Of a DNA stretch of 64,000 nucleotides, positions 2,191 to 17,081 are shown in pieces. Where the stretch lies: assembly GCA_027484425.1 (NCBI GenBank), contig JAIXSZ010000015.1, forward strand, positions 62,001 to 126,000, in the 5' to 3' direction. The position numbers were made by a program, and so were the translations under genes. This DNA comes from Sphingobacteriales bacterium. GTDB lineage: Bacteria; Bacteroidota; Bacteroidia; Chitinophagales; Chitinophagaceae. The notes beneath the pieces are model-generated. The model worked only from the letters and a program-made list of their open reading frames with translations. It made no database searches and was not told the origin of the DNA. Every line of letters begins with the position of its first letter. Within the stretch, counting starts at the first letter, position 1.

Positions 2191-4743
2191 ATGGATTCAA
2201 ACTTCTCGCCAAAAGTCAAAGAGATCATTTCGTACAGTAGGGAGGAAGCACTGAGGCTCGGTAATGATTTTATAGGTACAGAGCACTTGTTGCTTGGTCT
2301 CATTCGTGAGGGCGACGGCATGGCTCTAAAGGTCCTCCAAAGTATGCAGGTCGATCTATTCGAGCTTCGTAAAGAGCTAGAAAGTGCTATAAAAGACAAA
2401 AACAGCAAACCCTTACTTAATATCAATAGTTTGCCACTTACTAAGCAGGCAGAAAAAGTAATTCGCATCACAGTACTTGAAGCCAAAGCACTTAAAAGTA
2501 CTACAGTAGAAACAGAACATCTCATGCTATCTATTCTTAAAAACAAAGAAAATGTAGCAACCCAGATTCTAGGCAATCTGGATGTAGATTACGAGCGTTT
2601 TAAAGGAGAATTAAGCATACTGCAAGGTGGTAGCCCAACTAGCGACTACAACGATCCGGGGTCAGAAGACTTTGAAGATGACGATGAGCGCAAACAACAA
2701 TACCAGCAGCGCAAACCAGCGACAGGCAACACAAAATCTAAAACACCTGTACTGGATAATTTCGGAAGAGATATCACCAAATTTGCAGAGTTGGGAAATC
2801 TCGACCCTATAGTGGGAAGAGAAGAAGAAATAGAGAGAGTATCACAAATATTATCCCGACGCAAGAAGAACAATCCTATATTGATTGGTGAGCCTGGAGT
2901 AGGTAAAACCGCAATAGTTGAAGGTCTGGCACTACGTATCGTACAAAGGAAAGTATCCAGAGTACTGTTTGACAAACGAGTAATCAGTTTAGATCTTGCA
3001 GCCCTCGTTGCAGGTACTAAATACCGCGGCCAGTTCGAAGAACGTATGAAAGCGATAATGAACGAACTGGAAAAAAACAGGGATGTGATTCTTTTTATCG
3101 ATGAAATTCATACGATTGTAGGTGCTGGTGGAGCGTCAGGGTCGCTCGATGCATCTAACATTTTTAAGCCAGCACTTGCTCGTGGCGATCTTCAATGCAT
3201 TGGTGCGTCAACTCTTGATGAATATCGTATGTACATAGAGAAGGATGGTGCCCTAGATCGCCGCTTTCAAAAAGTACTTATAGAGCCACCGAGCGTTGAA
3301 GAAACTATAATCATTCTCAATAACATTCGCTCGAAATACGAAGACTTCCACAATGTAATTTATGACGCTGAGTCGATAGAAGCTTGTGTGAAACTGAGTG
3401 ATAGGTACATGACCGATAGGCTGTTGCCCGACAAAGCAATTGACGTAATGGACGAAGCAGGAGCTAGAGTGCACCTCAAGAATATCAATGTGCCACAGAG
3501 CATATTGGATCTGGAGAAACAAATAGAAGATATAAAACAAGAGAAAAATAAGGTAGTGAAAAGTCAGCGATTCGAAGAAGCCGCTGCACTGCGCGATCGT
3601 GAGAAAAGATTGGGCGAAGAGCTAGAGCGCGCTAAAGCTGAATGGGAAGAAGAAGCAAAACACAAACGTTTCCCGATCAACGAAGAAGCGATAGCAGAGG
3701 TGATAAGTATGATGACGGGTATACCCGTTATGAGGATGGTGGAGGCAGAGAGTAACAAACTGCGTAGAATGGGCGATGACCTGCAAGGTGCTGTTGTGGG
3801 CCAAGATGATGCAATAAACAAAATAGTAAAAGCTATTCAACGAAACAGAGTAGGTCTTAAGGACCCGCGCAAACCAATAGGGTCTTTCATTTTCTTAGGT
3901 CCTACAGGTGTTGGTAAAACAGAATTAGCTAGAGCATTAGCCCGTTATATGTTTGACGGAGAAGATGCTCTGATTAGAGTAGATATGAGCGAATATATGG
4001 AGAAGTTCTCTTTAAGCCGTCTTATAGGTGCTCCTCCAGGGTATGTGGGTTATGAAGAAGGCGGACAGCTTACCGAAAAAGTAAGGCGTAAACCCTATTC
4101 AGTTGTATTGCTCGACGAAATAGAAAAAGCACACCCAGATATTTTCAATATTATGCTCCAAGTATTAGATGATGGTCAACTTACGGATGGGCTGGGTAGA
4201 AAAGTAGATTTCAAGAATACGCTTATCATAATGACGTCCAACATTGGTGCTCGTCAGCTCAAAGACTTTGGCACAGGAGTTGGTTTTGCCACAACAGCGA
4301 AAACAACTAGCAGTGAAGAAAATAGCCGTGGTGTTATAGAGAAAGCACTAAAACGCACATTCTCTCCAGAGTTTCTGAATCGTATTGACGATGTAGTTAT
4401 TTTCAATTCGCTCGATGACTCTAATATAGCGCAGATCATTGATATTATAATGAAAGATGTCCTGAAACGTCTAAATGCTCTGGGCTTTACATTGCATTTA
4501 GCGGACAGTGCCAAAAAGTTTATAGCAGAAAAAGGATATGATCAGCAGTTCGGTGCTCGTCCTCTGCATAGGGCTATTCAGAAATACTTGGAAGACCCAC
4601 TAGCAGAAGAAATACTAAACCACAGAATAAAATCGGGAGATACGGTATCTGCAGAATATAATGAAACAGAAAAGAAAATTGTTTTCGACATTAACCATGC
4701 GCCCACTATCGTAGAAACCGAAAAACCACTGGACGGACAATAA
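2191..4743 (+). CDS. clpC: ATP-dependent Clp protease ATP-binding subunit ClpC
   Basis: An 850-residue Hsp100 unfoldase that feeds substrates to ClpP. Two Clp N-terminal repeats occupy residues 1-140, AAA-1 has Walker A GEPGVGKT near 232 and Walker B LFIDEIH, a UVR-type coiled segment (RFEEAAALRDREKRL) sits near 455-475, AAA-2 has Walker A GPTGVGKT near 569, and the ClpB-type D2-small domain closes the protein. The short middle region identifies ClpC rather than the ClpB disaggregase. The frame extends upstream to a GTG at 2077, but the ATG at 2191 begins the conserved N-terminal domain (MDSNFSPKVKEII) and is chosen. A strong hairpin terminator follows the stop. It is monocistronic. Confidence 0.96.
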   Translation: MDSNFSPKVKEIISYSREEALRLGNDFIGTEHLLLGLIREGDGMALKVLQSMQVDLFELRKELESAIKDKNSKPLLNINSLPLTKQAEKVIRITVLEAKALKSTTVETEHLMLSILKNKENVATQILGNLDVDYERFKGELSILQGGSPTSDYNDPGSEDFEDDDERKQQYQQRKPATGNTKSKTPVLDNFGRDITKFAELGNLDPIVGREEEIERVSQILSRRKKNNPILIGEPGVGKTAIVEGLALRIVQRKVSRVLFDKRVISLDLAALVAGTKYRGQFEERMKAIMNELEKNRDVILFIDEIHTIVGAGGASGSLDASNIFKPALARGDLQCIGASTLDEYRMYIEKDGALDRRFQKVLIEPPSVEETIIILNNIRSKYEDFHNVIYDAESIEACVKLSDRYMTDRLLPDKAIDVMDEAGARVHLKNINVPQSILDLEKQIEDIKQEKNKVVKSQRFEEAAALRDREKRLGEELERAKAEWEEEAKHKRFPINEEAIAEVISMMTGIPVMRMVEAESNKLRRMGDDLQGAVVGQDDAINKIVKAIQRNRVGLKDPRKPIGSFIFLGPTGVGKTELARALARYMFDGEDALIRVDMSEYMEKFSLSRLIGAPPGYVGYEEGGQLTEKVRRKPYSVVLLDEIEKAHPDIFNIMLQVLDDGQLTDGLGRKVDFKNTLIIMTSNIGARQLKDFGTGVGFATTAKTTSSEENSRGVIEKALKRTFSPEFLNRIDDVVIFNSLDDSNIAQIIDIIMKDVLKRLNALGFTLHLADSAKKFIAEKGYDQQFGARPLHRAIQKYLEDPLAEEILNHRIKSGDTVSAEYNETEKKIVFDINHAPTIVETEKPLDGQ

Positions 4744-4767
4744 AGCAAGATTATTTTATACTATTCC

Positions 4768-4804
4768 AAATGAACCGCAACCCACTTTGCGGTTCATTTG
4801 TTTT
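4768..4804 (+). terminator. Rho-independent terminator of clpC
   Basis: A 13-bp perfect stem (4768-4780 with 4787-4799), six-base loop, then TTTT after a G. It begins 25 bp after the clpC stop. Confidence 0.75.
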
Positions 4805-4925
4805 AAAGTAATACAAGGTTAGCTTATTTTCTAGTTAATAAAAGCACCAATTTATTGGTCATAATTGATGTACTCACACCTAAAAAGTGTCAACGGTACT
4901 GCATAGCTTTGCAATCAAACCTGTT

Positions 4926-6590
4926 ATGCCTAAAATTCCATTCTGGATATTTGTTATCATAGCTATTATCTACATCTCAGCGGTGAGGGTAGACACTATG
5001 GATGTTGATGCTTCTCAGTACGCTGAAATAAGCCGCGAAATGATGGAAAGCGGCAGCTATCTTCAAATATTCGACCGAGGCGTTGACTACCTTGATAAGC
5101 CCCCGCTGCATTTTTGGCTCAGTGCTCTGTCCATGCGTTTATTGGGAGTTAACAATCTAGGCTATAAGTTACCATCTATTTTGTTTGCCCTTTGGTCGCT
5201 GTTTGCAACTTGGCGATTGGGCAGACTATTATACAATGATATTACTGGTAGAATGGCTGCACTCATTCTTGCTACCTGTCAAGGTTTGTTTCTTATCACT
5301 AACGATGTCCGATGCGACACCATTCTCATGAGTTGTGTTATCACTTCTATTTGGCTCATTCAAGAGTGGGTCGTTAGCCGAAAAGTCCACTATCTATTGG
5401 CGGGAAGCGCGGCTATAGCTTTAGGTATGATGACCAAAGGTCCAGTAGCACTTATGGTTCCAGGATTTTGTTTTGTCACAGATTGGGTTTTTCGTCGTCA
5501 ATGGAAAAATTTTCTCACACCAGCATTTATACCCGCACTCTTAGTTATAGGCATTTTACTCGTTCCCATGAGTATTGGTCTTTATCAGCAGTTTGACCTA
5601 CAACCCCAAAAAGCTGTCAACGGTACCACTGGTGTTTCAGGATTACGTTTTTTCTATTGGTCACAAAGTTTTGGTAGGCTAACAGGCGAGAGCCCTTGGA
5701 ACAATGGGGCTAAACTAGACTTTCTTTTACTTAATATGTTGTGGTCGTTCTTGCCATGGATTTTTTTATTTCTTACCGCTCTCACCATAAACACATCCAC
5801 GCTTATCCGTCAACGGTTCCGCCTTCTGGCAGGTCAGGAGTGGGTCACTTCAGGTGGGTTTATTTTGGCATACCTTACCTTGGGGTCTTCTGCCTACCAG
5901 TTACCCCATTATATTTTTGTGGTTTTTCCTTTGGCAGCTATCCTTACAGCAAATCTCGTTTACAAAACAGGAGTAGATAGTAGTTACTCTAGGCTTTTGA
6001 AATTCATGGCTTCTGCACACACTGTAATCTCATTTTTGTTGCTTGTTGCTGTGGGTTTTCTAGTTATAGTAGTTTTTCCCGCAGGTATTGTTGTAATGTT
6101 ACTTTGGGCAATTTGTTTGGCTGGTTGGCTTTATCTTGCTTTCATTCAAAAATTCGAAAAGTTTAGCTTGTTATGGTTGCCTTCAGCAGCGATAATTATT
6201 GTCAATCTTTTTCTTACCAATTGGTTTTACTATCCTCTTTTGGGTTACCAAGCAGGCTCTCAGGTAGGCAGATTTATACACGATACCAAGATAGATCCAG
6301 GTACAGTTATGATATACAAACCAGAAGACCCACTAAATGCGCTGCATTTTTATGCTCAAGGCGCTATTCCTAGTACTGATACTTCCATTGCACTCAGCAG
6401 ACAATATGTACTAACAATGAGTAAAGGCTTAAATAGTCTTAAAGATCAAGGCTATCATTTTAAAATCATAAAACAAGGAGTATACTACAAGGTTAGCGAA
6501 TTAACACTACCATTTCTCAATCCCTCATCTCGAAGTGCTGTGGTACAAAATTATTATTTACTAAGAATAACTTCAATCGCCTCTCAATAA
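4926..6590 (+). CDS. Glycosyltransferase family 39 / ArnT-like membrane protein
   Basis: A polytopic membrane protein of 554 residues. After the first membrane segment comes an acidic loop (VDTMDVDASQYAEISREM) ahead of YLDKPPLHFWL, the signature of GT-C fold glycosyltransferases of the ArnT/PMT type, where the acidic residues in the first periplasmic loop are catalytic. About ten or more hydrophobic segments follow, then a soluble C-terminal part. Such enzymes transfer a sugar from a polyprenyl-phosphate donor to lipid A, protein or glycan; the acceptor cannot be told here. A GTG at 4887 could add 13 residues, but the ATG at 4926 directly precedes the hydrophobic N terminus and is preferred. 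It ends 3 bp from the convergent Fn3 gene. Confidence 0.82.
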   Translation: MPKIPFWIFVIIAIIYISAVRVDTMDVDASQYAEISREMMESGSYLQIFDRGVDYLDKPPLHFWLSALSMRLLGVNNLGYKLPSILFALWSLFATWRLGRLLYNDITGRMAALILATCQGLFLITNDVRCDTILMSCVITSIWLIQEWVVSRKVHYLLAGSAAIALGMMTKGPVALMVPGFCFVTDWVFRRQWKNFLTPAFIPALLVIGILLVPMSIGLYQQFDLQPQKAVNGTTGVSGLRFFYWSQSFGRLTGESPWNNGAKLDFLLLNMLWSFLPWIFLFLTALTINTSTLIRQRFRLLAGQEWVTSGGFILAYLTLGSSAYQLPHYIFVVFPLAAILTANLVYKTGVDSSYSRLLKFMASAHTVISFLLLVAVGFLVIVVFPAGIVVMLLWAICLAGWLYLAFIQKFEKFSLLWLPSAAIIIVNLFLTNWFYYPLLGYQAGSQVGRFIHDTKIDPGTVMIYKPEDPLNALHFYAQGAIPSTDTSIALSRQYVLTMSKGLNSLKDQGYHFKIIKQGVYYKVSELTLPFLNPSSRSAVVQNYYLLRITSIASQ

Positions 6591-6593
6591 CTA

Positions 6594-8360
6594 TTATCTA
6601 CGCTTATTGTTTGCTGGTATTGCGACTACCGCAGGCGTGGAATTAGGGCCAGTTATTCCCCGAATTGTTATTGCACACAGCGTATAAGTCGTAGTGGTCC
6701 CAGGTGCTACGCCCTCAATAACGTGTGCTTTTACTGTCTTCCCTAATATGTTTTCATCTGCTATCAATACGCCATCAGCATAAAGCCTATAGCCGAGCAA
6801 GTCGGCTACATCAGGATAAACCCACATCAAGTATATTTTGCTGCCATCTGTTACATTTTTAACGAATGTAGGGGCTGGCAAGTCTAAACTTAATGATTTA
6901 GCCACAACTGTGTCACTGGGTTCACTTTCCATCCCGCTCAGGCTTACAGCACGAACAAAAAAATGATAGTCGGCAGCAAGACCAGATTCCGCTATGTGTG
7001 TAAAAGAGGTAGTACCAACAGGTAAGGTGTCTGCAAGGACATAATAGCGACGAGAAGTAGGATTGTAAGAGTAAACTTTGTAATGTTTTGTTACCACATC
7101 GCCGTTAATAATGCTGTCCCATTTTAAGCGCATTACAAATTTTTTGTGTTCGATACCACCAATCACTCGTATGTTAAGTGGTTTAGGTGGGTCTATCATC
7201 GGAAAGTAACTATACAGCATTTCAATTCCTGATACAGACGTGCGATCGTGATACAATGTAACCACTCGCATTCTAATTTTACTACTTACTGAAGATCCTG
7301 TTTTGTCTATAAATGTTCTGGAAGAAGGGGGCAGTAATTCAGATACACGCTTATAGCCATCAGGCATATTGTCTTTTTCTACATAAAAACCCTTTACGTA
7401 GTGCTCTTCTTCTATTGGAAAGGCCCAGTTTACTGTAATTCCATCCTTAAAATAATACCCTGACGATATAACATTAGTAACAACAGCTTTTGTGTAGTCT
7501 TCTGGGTGTTGTGAGGGTTCATATGTATATGATTTAATTATACCCTCTATTCCAAAAAGTGTTTGGGCACTAATACTATATTGTTCGGCAGTAAAGGCAT
7601 TGGCAGAAAGGTCATTCCAAGCATATTCAGATAAATGTGCTGCGTCAATGCTGATTATGGGGCTTTCATTTAATCTGATACCTTTTTTGTAAATGTTAAA
7701 ACCAGCTACGTAACTACTTTTTACTCTTTTCTCATCAGCAGTCCATATAACCTTTATACCTTTTTTCCCATTTCCTGCCTGTGATGTTATTTCTTTTATA
7801 ATGTTTAAATCCGGTATTTCACCATAATTCCAATTCACACTAGCCAACAGTTCATCATTTGAATGTGAAAAAACTGCGTATTCATAATCCGTTTTTTGTG
7901 AAAGAGTATGATCTACATACCCAAAACCGCACATAACCGAAATGTCAAAATCTTGACCAGCCATGTAAAGAATTTCCATTATATCCTTATCGCTTTGCTT
8001 CCACTTACTCAAAAAACTCTGATAGTCATACTCCTTAAGTCTTCCTGTCTTAATTAATTCCTTTAGTTTGTTCTGTATTCGTGTGGCTTCAGTATTGTCT
8101 TTTTCAAATATGGCTAGCGACTTCTTTACAGATATTCCTGGCAGCAGTGGCTCTGTGTTAAGTTTTACCCAACCACCGATACCATCTTTGCGTTTAATAT
8201 CAAATCCAGTAAAATCCGAAGGTATACTGTTCATAAACCACACCAACTTCACTGTTTTTCCGTCAGGGCTTTGTGCCAGTAGATTTGTAGTTGCGTTTTG
8301 CCCTAGGCAAACCGAATAATGTGCCAGAAAAGCACAAAAAGAAATTAAGAATGTTTTCAT
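6594..8360 (-). CDS. Secreted fibronectin type III-domain protein
   Basis: A 588-residue exported protein. A signal peptide with a cleavage-type end (SVCLGQ) covers about residues 1-21. The rest consists of repeated beta-sandwich segments with the Fn3 pattern: strand W residues (VKLVWFM, GIKVIWTAD, ITVNWAFP, MRLKWDS, IYLMWVYP) each followed by a Y/F-rich strand (GFDIKRKD, GFNIYKKG, GFYVEKD, YKVYSY, GYRLYADG). At least five such units can be counted. There is no T9SS sorting domain at the C terminus. Function is unknown; related proteins are cell-surface or periplasmic. It lies downstream of the SNF2 helicase gene with a 163-bp gap containing a hairpin. Confidence 0.75.
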   Translation of the reverse strand: MKTFLISFCAFLAHYSVCLGQNATTNLLAQSPDGKTVKLVWFMNSIPSDFTGFDIKRKDGIGGWVKLNTEPLLPGISVKKSLAIFEKDNTEATRIQNKLKELIKTGRLKEYDYQSFLSKWKQSDKDIMEILYMAGQDFDISVMCGFGYVDHTLSQKTDYEYAVFSHSNDELLASVNWNYGEIPDLNIIKEITSQAGNGKKGIKVIWTADEKRVKSSYVAGFNIYKKGIRLNESPIISIDAAHLSEYAWNDLSANAFTAEQYSISAQTLFGIEGIIKSYTYEPSQHPEDYTKAVVTNVISSGYYFKDGITVNWAFPIEEEHYVKGFYVEKDNMPDGYKRVSELLPPSSRTFIDKTGSSVSSKIRMRVVTLYHDRTSVSGIEMLYSYFPMIDPPKPLNIRVIGGIEHKKFVMRLKWDSIINGDVVTKHYKVYSYNPTSRRYYVLADTLPVGTTSFTHIAESGLAADYHFFVRAVSLSGMESEPSDTVVAKSLSLDLPAPTFVKNVTDGSKIYLMWVYPDVADLLGYRLYADGVLIADENILGKTVKAHVIEGVAPGTTTTYTLCAITIRGITGPNSTPAVVAIPANNKRR

Positions 8361-8523: not shown

Positions 8524-11500
8524 TTAACTAAAAAGGAAGGCTATATCATCTTTAGTCAACCGCTTCATAAAGGCATTATCGTCGCTTACGAGTTCATTTG
8601 CAAGGTTACGTTTACGTTCTTGCAGTTGAAGCATTTTTTCTTCCAACGTGTCCTTACATATAAGTCTATATGCAAAAATGTTTTTGGTTTGTCCTATACG
8701 GTGTGTCCGGTCTATCGCCTGTTGTTCTACTGCTGGGTTCCACCAAGGATCTACAATGTAAACATAATCGGCAGCAGTAAGGTTAAGACCTATACCACCA
8801 GCTTTTAGCGATATCAAAAACACCCTGCACTCAGGGTTATTCTGAAATTCTTGTATCGCACGCTCTCTTTCTGCCGATGTGCTACTACCATCAAAGTAAA
8901 CATGACTTATACCCTCTTTGTTCAGTTTTTCTTTGATAAGTGCCAGCATTCCTAGGAACTGTGAGAAAATAAGTACCTTATGATCGCCTACATTTTCTGT
9001 TATTTCTCTGCTGAGCTCATCCAACTTTACTGAATAGTTGTGGAAACGTTCTTCTTCATTCAGTATTGCTGGGGAGTCACATATTTGCCTCAGGCGGGTT
9101 AGCCCCTGCAGTATGTGCATTTGTGAGCGCTCCATACCACGCTCTTCTATCATACCCAGTATTTGAGATCTATAGGTGTTACGGTAGGCATCGTAAATTT
9201 TACGTTGTTCTGTACCCATTTCACAATATAGAATTGTTTCTGTTTTTTCTGGTAGGTCTTTCGCCACCTGCTCCTTAGTGCGCCGGAGCAAGAATGGTCG
9301 GGTCAGTTTGCGCAATTGCTGTTTCACCTCATCTTCCATAAACTTATCTATGGGTGTGGCAAACTCACTCATAAAAAACTCTCGGCTACCTAGCATGCCA
9401 GGGTTCAGGAAGTTCATTTGGGCATAGAGGTCGAAAGTATTATTTTGTACTGGTGTACCACTTAGCGCCAACCTATTTTTACAATTGAGTAGCAAAGAAG
9501 CCTTAGCCACCTGCGATTGAGGATTTTTTATAGATTGCGACTCGTCTAGCACCACATAGTCAAACTCTATATCACGAAGACCTTTTATATCGCTACGCAT
9601 GGTACCATACGTGGTGATAATAACATCTGTGCCTTTGTAGGATAAAGGTGAAGGGTTCCTTTTGGGCCCATGATGAATCACATGTGTCAGTTCTGGTGTA
9701 AACTTTTTTATCTCGTTTTCCCAGTTATACATAAGTGTGGTAGGGCATACCACTAGGAAGGTAGCATCGGGATGCAGGTTTTTATAGTGTTGAAAGTAAG
9801 CTAAAGTCTGCACGGTCTTACCCAAACCCATATCATCTGCAAGTATACCACCCCAGCCAGCCTCATTAAGGAAAATAAGCCACTGAAAACCAGCTAACTG
9901 ATAAGGCCGTAGTGTGGCTGCCAGATGTTCTGGTGGCACTACCAGGCTATAATCAGTACTCAGTATGTTCTCTAGCTTTTCTCTTTTAAGTTCCAGTTCT
10001 TCATGTAGGGTGTCTTCGTCTATCTCTGACAACAACTCGTCTAGCACACTGAAGTGAAATTTCTTCAATCTCACTTTGTTACCTTTTGTTTCACCCATTT
10101 TCAGCAACAACCCATATTTTTTCAGCCACTCATCAGGGAGTAGCCCTATCGAGCCATCACCCAACCGAACAAAGTTCTGGCGTTGCGCCAATGCTTTTTT
10201 TACCTCTATTATAGACACCGACTGATCCCCGAAGGTTAGCTCTACCGAAGCATCAAACCAGTCTATGCCACTGCTTACTTGTATCTGTGTTTGAGGTTTG
10301 TGAACGTTTACGCGTAGGTTTTTCAGACCTTCAAAACCCATCATTTCTACACCATGCTCCCGCATCAGTTCGTTGAAACGGAAGAACCAGTTATTGGCGA
10401 GTACTGAGGTGCCAGGTAGGTGAAAGAAACCTTCTCTTTTATTATGTTGTATGTCCGTGTGCAATGTCATTAACAGGTCAAGGAATTCTTGTTCTGCTAC
10501 TTCATTGCGCTTCATTATTGTTACTATGCCATTTTGCGGTTGTATTACATCCCCAAAATAGCCAGGTTTAATTTCCAGATTACCATACAGATACATTGGC
10601 TGCAACACCAACGTTTGTTCACGTTCATAAAGGTAAACTCTATATCCTGGTTTAGATTGAAGTATATGTTCTACTAGCTCTTCAGAGAAGTGCACATGCA
10701 CCATATTGCTCCACTTCATCAGCTTTTCGCTCAGAAATGTCTCCCATTTGCCCGCGTCTATTGTTAGTACTCCGTCGGGCAGCAATTGTTCTGCTAGTTG
10801 CACTTCCTGTATACTTCCCAATGCATACATGCAGTTATCGTGCAATAGCATAGCTGCATTGACTATTTCCACATTTTTGTGCGGTATAGCCTTCGAATCT
10901 ATGTTCCACTCTAGTAGTACCTTATACTTCTTACCTACTTTCTGTGCCACAAGTTGCGGATGTGCCGCCCTACCAGAAAAAGATACAGGCTCTAATGATT
11001 TTGATGAAAGCGGTTTACCTTTCTTCTTAAGGTATAGAAATGGGTGTGCTGAGTATCTGTCTGCAAGTTTCTGGTACTTGGGTAACAGGTATTCCCACGC
11101 CTGTTCTCGTACTTCATCTTGTGGTATGTCTTTCAATACACTTTCGTAGTCGTGCAAAAAGTCACCAAAAGGCAGTGTTTTTTTCAGGTATTTAAGGAGC
11201 TCTTCAGGTAGAAATTTACGTACTACCGGTAGTAGGTCTCTGTCTTCTGTCACAAACCTAATAGGGTTTACATATTGGCTCAGCTCCAGTTTTTCAATGT
11301 TCCCCGTCAAAGATCTGCCATCTTCAGCGGCAAGGCTCGCTATTAGCAGCACTTCCACAAACGGGAAGGTGGTGATGCTAGTATCCACTACCACTCCTAC
11401 TCTCAATTCTTCTTTGGGTACCATTACTGCTGGCGAAGCTGTTACCACAGCCGCTACCACTTGCTCTTTAATTGTTGGCTTGCTGTCTATTTTTTTAATA

Positions 11501-12276
11501 GATGAGTCTAGTACCCTCAGAAAGGGTTTGTTGTTTTCGTACGTAAACTCAAACTTACCTTTCAGATCGTCCTTCAGAGAGTAACCATATTGTTCTAAAA
11601 GTTTATTTTTTTGAACATCCCAGTTTTGTACAGACTGAAAGTGTTGTGCGCCATGTGCTCTCAATACTTGCAAAAACAATGCTGCTTTGTGCATACACAG
11701 CGGGTGCGACTTCTCGTCACATCCGCAGGAGGTATCAAAATAGCGCTCTTCGTTTTGCTTAATGGTTACATGATAGGTGTTGTCATCTTCAGGCATATCA
11801 GCCTCTATACTGCCATTTTTATTGGTCACAATAGTTGCTCTGCCCGAGTTCGCCAGCCTTTCAGCGCGCTCGAGTGCTTCTGCTTCGGTAAACAGTTGTA
11901 ACATTTGTCTGTTCACTTGTCGCATACGCACTACAGTATGTTTTTGGTCATATTCAATGCTTACGTTTTCAAAGAAGCCACTTTGCAGTATATCATTCAG
12001 TTGAAAAAGCCCTGCCACTTCATGCCGGCATATCTCACCCAAGTTATATGGGCATTGACAGCGCACAGTCATTTCCTTAGGCTGCAGGTACTTATTGATG
12101 GTAACAGTGTAATAATTCTGGTACAGATCATTACGCACCCTGAAGCGCACCTGCTCTAGCAAATGATCTACATCCAGCATTTGTACGCCCGATGTATAAA
12201 AAATTTTCTTCCCACGCCGAATGACCTCCTCGGTACCGTGGTTGTAAACGTGTCTTAGTATTGGTGGTAATGACAT
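8524..12276 (-). CDS. SNF2-family DNA helicase/translocase with two SWIM zinc fingers
   Basis: A 1250-residue Swi2/Snf2 ATPase. Two SWIM-type CxC...CxH zinc fingers lie near residues 70-83 (CQC...CRH) and 183-196 (CGC...CMH). A long poorly conserved middle region follows. The motor has motif I ADDMGLGKT near 814, motif II DES (LDESQS), motif III LSGTPVQNN, and the C-terminal helicase lobe with FSQFLGM, GGIGLNLTAAD and DRTHRIGQ. Bacterial members are RapA/HepA-like and probably remodel protein-DNA or polymerase complexes; a precise role is not established. Motif II is DESQ rather than DEAH, as in many Snf2 proteins. A TACTTTTG element lies upstream. The gene stands alone, followed by the Fn3 gene on the same strand. 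Confidence 0.9.
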   Translation of the reverse strand: MSLPPILRHVYNHGTEEVIRRGKKIFYTSGVQMLDVDHLLEQVRFRVRNDLYQNYYTVTINKYLQPKEMTVRCQCPYNLGEICRHEVAGLFQLNDILQSGFFENVSIEYDQKHTVVRMRQVNRQMLQLFTEAEALERAERLANSGRATIVTNKNGSIEADMPEDDNTYHVTIKQNEERYFDTSCGCDEKSHPLCMHKAALFLQVLRAHGAQHFQSVQNWDVQKNKLLEQYGYSLKDDLKGKFEFTYENNKPFLRVLDSSIKKIDSKPTIKEQVVAAVVTASPAVMVPKEELRVGVVVDTSITTFPFVEVLLIASLAAEDGRSLTGNIEKLELSQYVNPIRFVTEDRDLLPVVRKFLPEELLKYLKKTLPFGDFLHDYESVLKDIPQDEVREQAWEYLLPKYQKLADRYSAHPFLYLKKKGKPLSSKSLEPVSFSGRAAHPQLVAQKVGKKYKVLLEWNIDSKAIPHKNVEIVNAAMLLHDNCMYALGSIQEVQLAEQLLPDGVLTIDAGKWETFLSEKLMKWSNMVHVHFSEELVEHILQSKPGYRVYLYEREQTLVLQPMYLYGNLEIKPGYFGDVIQPQNGIVTIMKRNEVAEQEFLDLLMTLHTDIQHNKREGFFHLPGTSVLANNWFFRFNELMREHGVEMMGFEGLKNLRVNVHKPQTQIQVSSGIDWFDASVELTFGDQSVSIIEVKKALAQRQNFVRLGDGSIGLLPDEWLKKYGLLLKMGETKGNKVRLKKFHFSVLDELLSEIDEDTLHEELELKREKLENILSTDYSLVVPPEHLAATLRPYQLAGFQWLIFLNEAGWGGILADDMGLGKTVQTLAYFQHYKNLHPDATFLVVCPTTLMYNWENEIKKFTPELTHVIHHGPKRNPSPLSYKGTDVIITTYGTMRSDIKGLRDIEFDYVVLDESQSIKNPQSQVAKASLLLNCKNRLALSGTPVQNNTFDLYAQMNFLNPGMLGSREFFMSEFATPIDKFMEDEVKQQLRKLTRPFLLRRTKEQVAKDLPEKTETILYCEMGTEQRKIYDAYRNTYRSQILGMIEERGMERSQMHILQGLTRLRQICDSPAILNEEERFHNYSVKLDELSREITENVGDHKVLIFSQFLGMLALIKEKLNKEGISHVYFDGSSTSAERERAIQEFQNNPECRVFLISLKAGGIGLNLTAADYVYIVDPWWNPAVEQQAIDRTHRIGQTKNIFAYRLICKDTLEEKMLQLQERKRNLANELVSDDNAFMKRLTKDDIAFLFS

Positions 12277-12644: not shown

Positions 12645-15600
12645 ATGACCCACCGCATTTTACATGGTACACATCGTCCCGATCTGTTGCAAGACGAAAC
12701 GCTTGCAACTATCTTTTGTGCCACAGCCTTGCGGTTTCCACACAAAACAGCCTTAATTTTCAATGATGTCAGTCTCACCTATGCACAGCTCCATCACTGG
12801 AGCGATGCAATGGCGGCACACCTTTTGCAACAAGGCATTACTTCAGGCGATAGTGTGGGCGTGTGGTGGCCCAGAGGGGCAGCACTACATGTGGCAATTC
12901 TGGGGATAGTAAAAGCTGGCGCCGCCTATGTGCCGCTCGACTATGAAATGCCCCCAGATAGAGTAGCCGGTGTGCTGCAAGAGGTAGGCGCAGCTGCCTA
13001 TATTAGCGACAGAGAATTGCCGTTATCATGCCCTGCAATAAAAGTGATAGACCAAACAGAGGAAAGTGCACAAACAATTTCTCTAAAAGGTCCTTCACCT
13101 GACAATACAGCATATGTACTCTATACATCTGGTAGTACGGGCAAGCCTAAGGGAATACCTATCTCACACCGGCAGATTTGCCATTTGGTTCGTGCTGAGA
13201 ATAGTATACTGCAAATAAACACAGATGACAAAGTATATCAAGGCTTTTCAGTTTCCTTCGATATGTGGTGCGAGGAAAGTTGGATAGCTTACATGGTAGG
13301 AGCTACGCTATGGGTAGCAGATGCGCCCACATCTAAATCAATAGATGAACTAGGCGAAGTATTGCGCCAAAACAACATTACAGTGCTGCATGCTGTACCT
13401 AGCTTATTGGCTGTGATGGACGACGACATTCCTTCAATTAGACTTGTAAATGCAGGCGGAGAGACGTGTACTACTCAGGTACTTGACCGTTGGTCTGCGC
13501 CGCCTAGGCTATTTTACAACACGTATGGTCCTACCGAAACCACAGTAACAGCAACAATTGCTGAGCTTAAACCCGGCGACAAAATAACCATAGGTGTACC
13601 CCTGCCCAATTATTCGCTGGCAGTTGTGGACGAACAATTAAACCCACTGCCTAATGGCGAACGTGGTGAGTTGGTAATATCTGGTCCAGGAGTGTGCAAT
13701 GGTTACATAAACAGACCAGACCTTACCAACGACAAATTTGTACCAAAGCCTCAAGCATTGCACCAAATGTCGGGCGACCGTGTATACCGTACAGGCGATG
13801 CCGCAGTGATAAACAATGATGGGAGCATCGACTTTCAAGGCAGATTTGACGACCAGGTCAAGTTGCGTGGATACCGTATTGAGCTCGGTGAGATTGAAAA
13901 CAGAATCGCTACGCTACGCGACATAACCGCAGCGGTAGTAGCCATCAAAAAAGACATTAACGGACAAGACCACCTGGCAGCTTATGTAGTCTGCGACGAT
14001 CCGGTGAGTATGACTCAGCAGCACATTCGCGAGGAGCTAGCTAAGGTGTTGCCCCCATATATGGTGCCGGGCGTCATCATGCAACTTCCCGAAATGCCAC
14101 GCCTACCCAGTGGCAAAATCGACCGAAAATCACTGCCAACACCAGCTATGTTGATGGAAAACATAGCTCCAGTTGTAGATGAGGTTATAGACATCGACAC
14201 ATCTACAGCTGAACGCACTATTGTAGTATTAAGACGTTTTTTCCCCAACCGAACTATAACGCTTGACGATGATTTTTTTACTGACTTAGGCGGACATTCG
14301 TTACTGGCTGCAGCAGTAGTATCTGGCTTGCGCAAAGACGCCGCCATAACTCAGGCATCGCTCAAAGACCTCTACCTGCATCGCCCACTCAGCAGGGTAG
14401 TAGCCCACTGGGAAGAAAAAACAGCAGATATCCCTAAGGCAAAAAGGGTGTTCAACCACATACCAAAGGCTCGTTATTATTTATGCTGGCTAGCACAAAC
14501 GGTAGCGTTGTTGCTTATGTATGGGCTGTTTGCCGTACAGATTTTTTTCCCCTATTTAGGCTATTACATCGTTAAAGAAGAGTATAATAACATACCCTAT
14601 GCTATAGCCGCAGCGCTCTGTCTGTTTCTGCTCATACCACCTTTTTTTGCGTTGAGCAGTGTGGTCATCAAGTGGTTAGTTATAGGTCGTATGAAGGAGG
14701 GCGATTATCCGCTATGGGGTAGTTATTACTTCAGGTGGTGGTTTGTCAAAACCATGCAGCGGTTGCTGCCCTCTCAGTTTCTTAATGGCACACCGCTTTA
14801 CAATGGCTATCTCCGTCGGCTAGGGATGAAGGTAGCTAAGGATGCACAACTTGGCTCCATGACAGTAGGTGCCGAAGACCTTGTGACTATAGGTAGCGAT
14901 GTAAGCATCAGCTCTCAAACCGTACTCAACAATGCCTTTGTTGAAGATGGACTCCTCAAGTTGCGTCGCATTCACTTGGGCGACCATGCCTATATAGGTA
15001 GCAGTGCGGTTATAGCTGGTGGGGCTAATATAGAGCCTTGGGGTGAGTTGCAAGACCTAAGCTACCTATCCGCAGGCAAAACCATAAAAACTGGTGAGGT
15101 ATGGCAGGGTAGCCCAGCTGTTCTCAAAGAGACCAAAGCGCCACAAGATCTACCTCAGCCACTACCTGTCAGCAATACCACCCGTAGGGCATATTCATTA
15201 TTGTTTCTCCTATCGTTACTTATATTCCCAGTGGTTGTGCTGCTTCCATTGTTACCCACGGTTATTATTATTCACAATCTCGACAACTCCACCCCCGATT
15301 ACGACTTCAGTTACCTCACCGTTACTCCTTCACTGGCGCTCAGCTACATCTTACTATTTACGCTTAGCACAGTATTACTCACTAGGCTATTGCAGCGGGG
15401 CATAAAGCCTGGCAAGTACCCTATATACAGCCTTTTTTACGTGCGAAAGTGGTTTGCTGATCAGTTGATGTCACTTTCACTTATTGTGCTGCACCCCATG
15501 TACGCTACAGTTTATGTGTCTCTACTATTCAGAGCACTGGGAGCCAAGGTTGGAAGCAACACCGAGATATCTACAGCCAGCAGTGTCACACACCCATTAT

Positions 15601-16583
15601 TGGAAATTGGCAAGGACGCCTTTGTAGCAGATGCCGTTACACTTGGCGAAAGCGATGTGCGCGCACAACAACTCATTCTAGAACGCACTACAATAGGCGA
15701 CAATAGTTTTGTGGGCAATAGTGCCCTCATTCCTCAAGGCTATAACCTCCCTACACGTATGCTGATAGGCGTGCTATCCACCCCTCCTAACAAGGAGCAA
15801 CTTGCTGCAAGCGATGCCAGAGATTGGTTTGGCTCACCTGCCATACCCTTGCCCCGTAGGCAGGAGAGCCGTGCATTTGCCGCCACCGAAACCCTTCGGC
15901 CCTCACCCTCCAAAGTCTTGGGTAGGAGTATTGTAGAGTTTGTTCGAATTATTTTGCCCGAGACTACTATTCTCATTTGCAGCATATTGTTCATCGCTTA
16001 CTCTCACAATCTTGTAGTAGACAAGCCATGGTGGCGTACAGTTATAGAGCTCCCGCTTTACTACCTGTTTTTTATGGGTGGACCCGCGCTACTAGTCACT
16101 GTTCTGTTGAAATGGCTAGTTGTGGGGCGTTATATACCAGAGCAAAAACCCATGTGGTCGCTTCGTGTGTGGCTTAGCGAGGCTGTTACATCTACTTACG
16201 AGTCATTAGCGGTTCCCTTTCTACTCGATTTCACAAAAGGTACTCCTTGGTTACCGTTCTTGCTGCGCCTATTTGGAGTGAAAACAGGGAAACGTGTATG
16301 GATGAATACCACCGACATCACAGAACACGATATGGTAACCATTGGTGATGATACTGCTATGAACGAAGATTGTGGCCCCCAGACACATCTGTTTGAAGAT
16401 AGGGTAATGAAAGTTGGTAAAATAAAAATTGGCAAGCGATGTAGCATAGGCGCCCGAAGCATTATACTATACGACAGCGAAACTGGTGATGATGTAAACA
16501 TTGATGCGCTATCGCTAGTTATGAAAGGCGAAAGCCTCCAACCCGATACCCAATGGATAGGCAGCCCAATAAGACCGTTATAA
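12645..16583 (+). CDS. Pls/PosA-family non-ribosomal peptide synthetase (poly-amino-acid synthetase-like)
   Basis: A 1312-residue enzyme with the architecture of epsilon-poly-L-lysine synthetase. Adenylation domain, residues about 20-500: A3 TSGSTGKPKG near 160, A5 NTYGPTE near 292, A7 YRTGD near 381, A8 with RGYRIELGE near 408, A10 SGKIDRK near 490. Carrier domain: LGGHSLLAA, Ser near 551. Then six membrane segments in three pairs (about 611-682, 848-915, 1094-1165) alternating with three soluble domains (about 719-826, 953-1042, 1196-1312) showing left-handed beta-helix hexapeptide repeats. There is no condensation or thioesterase domain. Known relatives (Streptomyces Pls, about 1319 residues) build isopeptide-linked homopolymers of lysine or similar diamino acids. 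The ATG at 12645 is preferred over the GTG at 12612. No tailoring, export or degradation gene is adjacent. Confidence 0.88.
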   Translation: MTHRILHGTHRPDLLQDETLATIFCATALRFPHKTALIFNDVSLTYAQLHHWSDAMAAHLLQQGITSGDSVGVWWPRGAALHVAILGIVKAGAAYVPLDYEMPPDRVAGVLQEVGAAAYISDRELPLSCPAIKVIDQTEESAQTISLKGPSPDNTAYVLYTSGSTGKPKGIPISHRQICHLVRAENSILQINTDDKVYQGFSVSFDMWCEESWIAYMVGATLWVADAPTSKSIDELGEVLRQNNITVLHAVPSLLAVMDDDIPSIRLVNAGGETCTTQVLDRWSAPPRLFYNTYGPTETTVTATIAELKPGDKITIGVPLPNYSLAVVDEQLNPLPNGERGELVISGPGVCNGYINRPDLTNDKFVPKPQALHQMSGDRVYRTGDAAVINNDGSIDFQGRFDDQVKLRGYRIELGEIENRIATLRDITAAVVAIKKDINGQDHLAAYVVCDDPVSMTQQHIREELAKVLPPYMVPGVIMQLPEMPRLPSGKIDRKSLPTPAMLMENIAPVVDEVIDIDTSTAERTIVVLRRFFPNRTITLDDDFFTDLGGHSLLAAAVVSGLRKDAAITQASLKDLYLHRPLSRVVAHWEEKTADIPKAKRVFNHIPKARYYLCWLAQTVALLLMYGLFAVQIFFPYLGYYIVKEEYNNIPYAIAAALCLFLLIPPFFALSSVVIKWLVIGRMKEGDYPLWGSYYFRWWFVKTMQRLLPSQFLNGTPLYNGYLRRLGMKVAKDAQLGSMTVGAEDLVTIGSDVSISSQTVLNNAFVEDGLLKLRRIHLGDHAYIGSSAVIAGGANIEPWGELQDLSYLSAGKTIKTGEVWQGSPAVLKETKAPQDLPQPLPVSNTTRRAYSLLFLLSLLIFPVVVLLPLLPTVIIIHNLDNSTPDYDFSYLTVTPSLALSYILLFTLSTVLLTRLLQRGIKPGKYPIYSLFYVRKWFADQLMSLSLIVLHPMYATVYVSLLFRALGAKVGSNTEISTASSVTHPLLEIGKDAFVADAVTLGESDVRAQQLILERTTIGDNSFVGNSALIPQGYNLPTRMLIGVLSTPPNKEQLAASDARDWFGSPAIPLPRRQESRAFAATETLRPSPSKVLGRSIVEFVRIILPETTILICSILFIAYSHNLVVDKPWWRTVIELPLYYLFFMGGPALLVTVLLKWLVVGRYIPEQKPMWSLRVWLSEAVTSTYESLAVPFLLDFTKGTPWLPFLLRLFGVKTGKRVWMNTTDITEHDMVTIGDDTAMNEDCGPQTHLFEDRVMKVGKIKIGKRCSIGARSIILYDSETGDDVNIDALSLVMKGESLQPDTQWIGSPIRPL

Positions 16584-16667: not shown

Positions 16668-17081
16668 TTACTTTTTCGTTTTTAGCAGTTTATCAATACC
16701 ATCTGAGCTGGTAATAAATCGGAAAGTGCTTAGATATTTCTTTTCATCTAAACTAAGGCTGGTTGTTTTTTCACCTACTACCGAATACTTCGTTTTAAAC
16801 ACTGCTAAACCTGGATTTGAGTCCTTAGTATCTATACCCACATATTCATACGAAAGTAACTTTCCATATTTTGTATGTAATGATTCCACAGCCTCTTTGT
16901 TCCACGATCGTTTTATACTTCCTAAATAGGGTGCATCAGCAGGCCACATGTTAACAATGCTATCGCACTGCTTGTTATTGTAAAATTTCATAAACATACT
17001 CATAGCATGTTCATGATCTGTTCGGGTTTGAGCATAACCAACTGAAGGTAACAGTAGGAATAAGAGAAGGATGTTTTTCAT
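16668..17081 (-). CDS. Small secreted hypothetical protein
   Basis: 137 residues with a clear signal peptide ending at GYAQ (about residue 18). The mature part has a helix with HEHAMSMFMKFYNNKQCDSIVNMW followed by a mixed alpha/beta pattern, similar in outline to small periplasmic domains of the DUF3887/SnoaL-like type, but I cannot assign it. The stop is 84 bp from the convergent Pls-like gene. Nothing near it suggests a role. Confidence 0.6.
   Translation of the reverse strand: MKNILLLFLLLPSVGYAQTRTDHEHAMSMFMKFYNNKQCDSIVNMWPADAPYLGSIKRSWNKEAVESLHTKYGKLLSYEYVGIDTKDSNPGLAVFKTKYSVVGEKTTSLSLDEKKYLSTFRFITSSDGIDKLLKTKK

Follow-up and report, generated by a model that had tools for sequence, protein, structure and literature searches.

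A Pls/PosA-family synthetase in a Bacteroidota genome, predicted to polymerise ornithine

The window analysed here, a stretch of 64,000 nucleotides from a Sphingobacteriales bacterium of the family Chitinophagaceae (assembly GCA_027484425.1, contig JAIXSZ010000015.1, positions 62,001 to 126,000), carries at 12645..16583 the gene of an intact enzyme of a known kind, a synthetase of the Pls/PosA family, in a branch of that family common to many Bacteroidota. The enzyme is probably a PosA-type synthetase that makes delta-poly-L-ornithine. PosA, from the gammaproteobacterium Acinetobacter baumannii, is a delta-poly-L-ornithine synthetase (Patel & Gulick 2023, PMC10522769). Within the C-terminal membrane domain, the motif QTHLFEDR is a candidate amide-forming centre. 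A sequence-only reading of the same DNA had taken epsilon-poly-lysine synthetase (Pls) as its model and had suggested that the enzyme may make a new polymer.

The synthetase and its domains

The reading frame opens with an ATG at 12645 and encodes 1312 amino acids without an internal stop; a GTG in frame 33 bases upstream (12612) would give an alternative protein of 1323 amino acids. Its parts are the following.

12645..16583, + strand: Pls/PosA-family single-module homopolymer synthetase resembling non-ribosomal peptide synthetases, 1312 residues (intact open reading frame; TIGR02353, 654.3 bits; 40% identity to PosA)
12693..14135, + strand: adenylation domain, about residues 17-497 (TIGR01733; Protein Data Bank matches include 8g95/8g97, PosA, and 7wew, Pls)
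14172..14430, + strand: carrier (thiolation) domain, about residues 510-595, bounds approximate (PF00550; motif LGGHSL)
14466..14684, + strand: membrane helix pair 1, residues 608-680 (AlphaFold2 helices, hydropathy)
14787..15149, + strand: C1 beta-helix domain, residues 715-835 (homologous to C3 by hhalign)
15174..15392, + strand: membrane helix pair 2, residues 844-916 (AlphaFold2 helices, hydropathy)
15492..15869, + strand: C2 beta-helix domain, residues 950-1075 (homologous to C3 by hhalign)
15906..16124, + strand: membrane helix pair 3, residues 1088-1160 (AlphaFold2 helices, hydropathy)
16227..16580, + strand: C3 beta-helix domain, residues 1195-1312 (invariance in 91 rows)
16380..16403, + strand: QTHLFEDR motif, residues 1246-1253, candidate amide-forming centre (conservation and hhalign register)

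The terminal domain matches TIGR02353 from residue 617 to 1309, over profile positions 2-695 of 695, scoring 654.3 bits where the cut-off is 423.1, and the adenylation model TIGR01733 covers residues 45-432 (390.6 bits, cut-off 317.4). A Pfam scan at E up to 1 returned six families, namely AMP-binding, AMP-binding_C, PP-binding, Hexapep and two weaker hexapeptide models below cut-off, with no condensation or thioesterase model among them; by the TIGRFAM and Pfam models, one adenylation and one carrier domain precede the terminal domain. Hydropathy gives three pairs of hydrophobic stretches (612-640/649-681, 846-881/893-917 and 1096-1126/1133-1161), with further stretches above the same threshold at 78-98 and 943-962. 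The same three helix pairs appear in an AlphaFold2 model of residues 510-1312 (mean predicted local distance difference test, pLDDT, 80.4; predicted template modelling score, pTM, 0.83; input alignment of 33 Bacteroidota sequences), which has six long helices and a beta-helix domain after each pair. Models, hydropathy and predicted fold thus bear out the layout that the sequence-only reading had described: one adenylation domain, one carrier domain, three helix pairs, three hexapeptide domains and no condensation domain.

That observation is confirmed because the frame is intact, the TIGR02353, TIGR01733 and Pfam models match, and the protein is the single match above the TIGR02353 cut-off in its own genome (4.58 Mb), where three others score 19.8-23.6 bits. 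A loss of key residues and a best match to a non-polymerising family were both looked for, and neither was found; the pocket, the carrier serine and, in the alignment, the core stretches of the adenylation domain are kept. Membership of the Pls/PosA family is as good as a sequence can make it.

Substrate pocket and relationship to PosA

Relatives were taken as the best 80 of 111 loci from a search of genome contigs with the window protein, a single-protein query that reaches close relatives only. They are 57-93% identical to it and come from Taibaiella, Flavipsychrobacter, other Chitinophagaceae, Chitinophaga, Mucilaginibacter, Parafilimonas and metagenome-assembled genomes, all of them Bacteroidota or groups within that phylum. 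The alignment has 92 rows, 80 of the Bacteroidota clade and 12 others, with 11 of 13 plasmid stretches taken in; five of the 80 loci, which are fragments (L033, L069, L071, L083, L084), and L001, a duplicate of the window, were left out. L118 and L119 (core motif TSGSSG) stand outside the 92 rows and are included in the counts over 91 rows, and the C-terminally cut L065, L076 and L082 are left out of the counts over 89 and 91 rows. The phosphopantetheine serine, S552 in LGGHSL (codon 14298-14300), is Ser in all 92 rows.

In the published PosA register, the pocket of the window enzyme is D206 M207 E210 H249 N269 G271 T293 V301 T302 K491, that is DMEHNGTVTK, identical at nine of ten positions to the PosA code DMEHNGTVSK; the tenth is position 9, with Thr302 for PosA Ser313. 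PosA was represented by L114, an Acinetobacter protein from the plasmid collection (CP040041.1), which can be identified with PosA by an exact match to the published code (PMC10522769) at residues 217, 218, 221, 260, 280, 282, 304, 312 and 313 (D M E H N G T V S). In PosA, whose adenylation-domain structures are 8G95-8G98, Asp217 and Glu221 are the most important pocket residues, Asp holding the alpha-amine and Glu the delta-amine, and this Asp/Glu pair is conserved across these synthetases; Met218 sets the chain length, its place being taken by Ala in lysine enzymes and by Phe in enzymes for diaminopropionic acid (DAP) and diaminobutyric acid (DAB), and the M218A change raised lysine use nearly ten-fold (PMC10522769). 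Each of 89 rows has Asp at code position 1 and Glu at position 3 (D206 and E210 in the window enzyme). Position 2 is Met207, as in PosA, and not the Ala that marks Pls, so that a Pls-type lysine code was rejected. Throughout the Bacteroidota clade, D-M-E and N-G are kept in 80 of 80 rows and His in 79; position 7 is Ser in 74 rows and Thr in six, the window among the latter; at position 9, Thr (61 rows) outnumbers Ser (19).

End to end, the window enzyme is about 40% identical to PosA and about 32% identical to two Streptomyces lysine-code enzymes. Because PosA is the nearest characterised relative compared, nine of ten code positions are those of PosA and D-M-E is invariant in the clade, a polymer already known, delta-poly-L-ornithine, is the most likely product; we have moderate confidence in L-ornithine as the substrate. 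The sequence-only interpretation holds in part. The homopolymer of a diamino acid that it proposed is still the best reading, given the TIGR02353 match, the intact key residues and the pocket code. A new polymer is not supported and was rejected as the leading reading, the code being of the PosA type and the PosA product being delta-poly-L-ornithine (PMC10522769). The statement that characterised enzymes are mainly actinobacterial and fungal omits PosA, and it is PosA, not the Streptomyces Pls, that is nearest among the characterised enzymes compared.

Other codes occur among the rows. Besides four actinobacterial rows (L120, L121, L122, L126), the Bacteroidota row L089 has a code of the DAES type, and three alphaproteobacterial rows have the DLED type; L124 reads DFECLSVVTK, L118 and L119 have DFEY-type codes, and the Sphingomonas protein L115 has exactly the DMEHNGTVTK of the window. 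As a separate observation, L123 (Streptomyces sp. NBC_00648 plasmid, 2935-6954) reads DSECYGGVTK, the code of a Bdellovibrionales enzyme with modest arginine activity (PMC10522769), and its terminal domain falls short of E 1e-110 with TIGR02353, unlike five other proteins scanned alongside.

A quick, unrooted tree of 44 of the 92 rows, for which the program warned of long branches, places the Bacteroidota ornithine-code rows (32 of the 44) in one clade with a support of 100 in the Shimodaira-Hasegawa-like approximate likelihood ratio test (SH-aLRT). This clade is sister to a group of PosA and three alphaproteobacterial enzymes (Azospirillum/Rhizobium), the joint node having an SH-aLRT of 99, so that PosA lies beside the clade and not inside it; the actinobacterial lysine-code enzymes stand apart. 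The tree called for by the sequence-only reading hence agrees with a PosA-like enzyme and does not by itself fix the substrate. L089, with the lysine-type code DAESIGTVIK, branches outside the ornithine-code clade and represents a second lineage of the family in this phylum.

Several points weigh against L-ornithine as the substrate, or against the function as a whole. Thr302 stands in place of Ser313, a delta-amine contact in PosA. The code does not separate ornithine from a near neighbour with certainty, the PosA pocket having also been crystallised with D-ornithine and L-lysine (PMC10522769). Tree position alone does not settle the matter, because the alphaproteobacterial neighbours of PosA carry DLED-type codes and L115, with the window's exact code, branches outside. 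The carrier model PF00550 is barely above its cut-off (20.9 bits against 20.8). The supply of ornithine is not proven, because an arginase-like gene in the own genome, which could make it, scores 210.1 bits, under the curated cut-off of 227.6, and no ornithine-type carbamoyltransferase was found in this draft genome, only an aspartate carbamoyltransferase. Since these are the genes present, an enzyme that uses ornithine may depend on arginine as its source, and the organism may take up arginine rather than make it.

An enzyme of the same type acting on another diamino acid (L-lysine, DAB, beta-lysine or D-ornithine), and so making epsilon-poly-lysine or an undescribed polymer, is the alternative that survives best, and we consider it unlikely. 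It draws on the binding of L-lysine and D-ornithine by the PosA pocket, on the difference from PosA at position 9 and on position 7, where 74 of the 80 clade rows, the window excepted, have Ser and not the Thr304 of PosA. Against it stand Met at position 2, the published chain-length marker for ornithine (PMC10522769), and the conservation in the window enzyme of M, T and the H, N and G of PosA; the contrasting code of L089 illustrates the lysine type in this phylum.

The polymerising domain

Profile comparison by hhalign shows C1, C2 and C3 to be mutually homologous (E 1.2e-33 for C3 with C1, 4.2e-20 for C3 with C2), and the three differ in what they conserve. Over 91 rows from Bacteroidota, Proteobacteria and Actinobacteria, C1 has three invariant positions of 121 (G727, G822, P824), none of them reactive and all probably structural only. 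C2 has nine of 126, including D996 and N1025, and C3 nine of 118, including T1200, Q1246, H1248 and D1252; these are the invariant residues with reactive side chains, and the pattern Gln-x-His-x-x-x-Asp (Q1246, H1248, D1252) is found in 91 of 91 rows, in C3 alone. In the hhalign register, the positions equivalent to His 1248 are occupied by Ala 764 (C1) and Ser 1003 (C2), and D768 of C1 is the counterpart of D1252. Nearly invariant are E974, S976 and E1227 (88 of 89 rows) and D1229 and R1253 (87 of 89). In L124, R1253 is replaced by Gly, T1247 by Ser, E974 by Gln and S976 by Gly; in L123, T1247 is replaced by Ala; L118 and L119 keep every named C2 and C3 residue. An earlier count over 23 rows gave 3, 13 and 18 invariant positions in C1, C2 and C3; its alignments (A2-A4) exclude the two most divergent rows, L123 and L124, and the 91-row counts are preferred.

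From this conservation we infer that one of three ancestral sites survives, with QTHLFEDR in C3 as the candidate amide-forming centre. It is quite possible, though we would stop short of calling it probable, that in the whole Pls/PosA family the polymerising domain consists of three beta-helix acyltransferases fused into a pseudo-trimer, that C1 has lost its site, and that all amide bonds are made at a single centre, composed of the C3 Gln-x-His-x-x-x-Asp and the C2 residues D996 and N1025, with E974 and S976, where the carrier's aminoacyl-pantetheine arm takes the place of acyl-CoA. Modelling of PosA gave the same layout, six helices and three beta-helices packed with approximate three-fold symmetry, and at publication its C-terminal domain was without structural information (PMC10522769). 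Two results speak against the role given to the C3 motif: C2 has as many invariant positions as C3, and a profile search that set the C3 His against the catalytic His of LacA-type sugar O-acetyltransferases gave E 0.97-1.1, with an alignment that stops at the Thr before the His. Foldseek against structures solved to April 2026 returned local beta-helix matches only, with a template modelling score over the query of 0.08-0.14 among the 50 matches listed.

Beta-helix acyltransferases normally move one acyl group to a sugar or lipid. The acyltransferase-like C-terminal domains could thus be taken to make a short ornithine oligomer, or to pass a single acyl group to another acceptor (lipid, polyamine, sugar), rather than to make a free homopolymer, and the PosA product in vitro is only 7-12 units long (PMC10522769). 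Such an activity seems improbable, as the relation to the homopolymer-making PosA spans the full length and the invariant C2 and C3 residues are common to PosA and the Streptomyces lysine-code enzymes. A decayed or inactive paralogue is very unlikely: no evidence for it was found, the gene stands without partner genes but so does posA (PMC10522769), the frame and core motifs are intact, and the relatives include a 93% identical protein (L016) and others at 72-81% of about equal length.

Proposed mechanism

By analogy with PosA, the adenylation domain would adenylate L-ornithine, with Asp206 on the alpha-amine, Glu210 on the delta-amine and Met207 limiting the chain length. Ornithine would then be loaded on the pantetheine of Ser552, activated beforehand by one of the genome's phosphopantetheinyl transferases, two genes for which score above the Pfam cut-off. 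The C-terminal membrane domain, acting as a three-in-one beta-helix acyltransferase, would repeatedly join the ornithine carboxyl to the next delta-amine, while the membrane helices may hold the site at the membrane and perhaps aid release of the chain. C3, with QTHLFEDR, and the invariant residues of C2 would make up one working site, C1 being a structural partner, as the conservation suggests. A short, positively charged isopeptide would result, which may be antifungal, as synthetic delta-poly-ornithine was in the PosA paper (PMC10522769).

Distribution and gene surroundings

Only TIGR02353 matches above the cut-off were counted, because proteins with a single hexapeptide domain match at E 0.001, a threshold that picks up 325 of 395 genomes as well as 13 of 14 controls. 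Among 395 genomes drawn evenly from the phylum, six pass the cut-off, the window's included, and they fall in five families; in the window's own family the figures are 43 of 294 genomes and 21 of 101 genera, and in its genus four of the five genomes listed have the synthetase. The window enzyme is a good study target rather than a new kind, because this branch is common to many Bacteroidota.

The gene is flanked by a divergent SNF2 helicase gene (8524-12276, - strand) and by a small convergent gene that matches no Pfam family (16668-17081, - strand). As the sequence-only reading had it, no degrading or transport gene is nearby, which is true of these adjoining genes. A biosynthetic operon was rejected: over 81 stretches (80 loci and the window; open reading frames of at least 110 amino acids), the commonest neighbour family occurs in only 20, and the window's own neighbours, an SNF2 helicase and fibronectin-type genes, recur only in six other loci, its closest relatives. 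The window contains three matches to the Bacteroidota -33/-7 promoter consensus, against a chance expectation of 2.74, and none of them lies near the gene. PF13444, presumably the acyltransferases of ornithine-lipid type, has no match in the own genome.

Elsewhere, 11 loci (L028, L030, L031, L032, L034, L035, L036, L037, L039, L040, L045; ten Chitinophaga and L037) have a codirectional gene of one family 3' of the synthetase; its start lies 4 to 31 bases beyond the synthetase in ten of them and 131 bases beyond it in the eleventh. By Pfam it is a GNAT-type acetyltransferase (one member tested), which may acetylate the polymer or protect the producer. In the Sphingomonas locus L115, genes for a phosphopantetheinyl transferase, a GNAT and an S8 peptidase follow the synthetase; the window locus has none of these three downstream. 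In L120 (Streptomyces sp. NBC_01454 plasmid, 2911-8273), an M1 metallopeptidase gene follows the lysine-code synthetase directly, with a 4-base overlap, and is a possible polymer-degrading partner.

The prediction would extend delta-poly-ornithine synthesis from one gammaproteobacterium (PMC10522769) to a large branch of Bacteroidota that includes named, cultured species of Chitinophaga and Mucilaginibacter, among them Chitinophaga eiseniae (L032) and Mucilaginibacter lappiensis (L074); there, such a polymer could serve as an antifungal or surface substance that nobody has looked for. The main text of the PosA paper has no word starting 'Bacteroid' and none of six Bacteroidota stems, and its homologue-listing supplement may name members. 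The open-licence literature gave nothing relevant on a polylysine synthetase in Bacteroidetes and no match to the letters QTHLF. The named residues allow one to ask how the family polymerises without a normal condensation domain, and the Bacteroidota clade offers dozens of natural variants for testing the single-centre proposal.

Comparison with known systems

The C-terminal domains weakly match, in sequence and local fold, hexapeptide left-handed beta-helix proteins such as LpxD, sugar O-acetyltransferases and gamma-carbonic anhydrases; the window enzyme differs in carrying three such domains, together with membrane helices, in a single chain, without a whole-length match to a solved structure. 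It passes the curated cut-off of the NCBIfam model TIGR02353, 'Pls/PosA family non-ribosomal peptide synthetase', and no feature tested sets it apart from that family. With Pls, whose adenylation-domain structure 7wew we take to be that of the Streptomyces albulus enzyme, it shares the order of adenylation domain, carrier domain and three units of helix pair plus beta-helix, and the motif QTHLF.DR is also present in the Streptomyces lysine-code relative L120. It is, however, only about 32% identical to L120, whose pocket, like that of L121, is DAESIGTVVK against DMEHNGTVTK, and L120 adjoins an M1 peptidase gene whereas the window gene does not. The gene-cluster class considered with the Pls/PosA family is NAPAA, non-alpha poly-amino acid, a term used in PMC13291983.

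PosA is the closest of the systems compared. The window enzyme, known from sequence alone, comes from a different phylum, is about 40% identical and has Thr for Ser at code position 9, but the two agree in architecture and nearly in length (1312 against 1332 amino acids), in the carrier motif, in the invariant residues of C2 and C3, in nine of ten pocket positions and in the gene standing alone.

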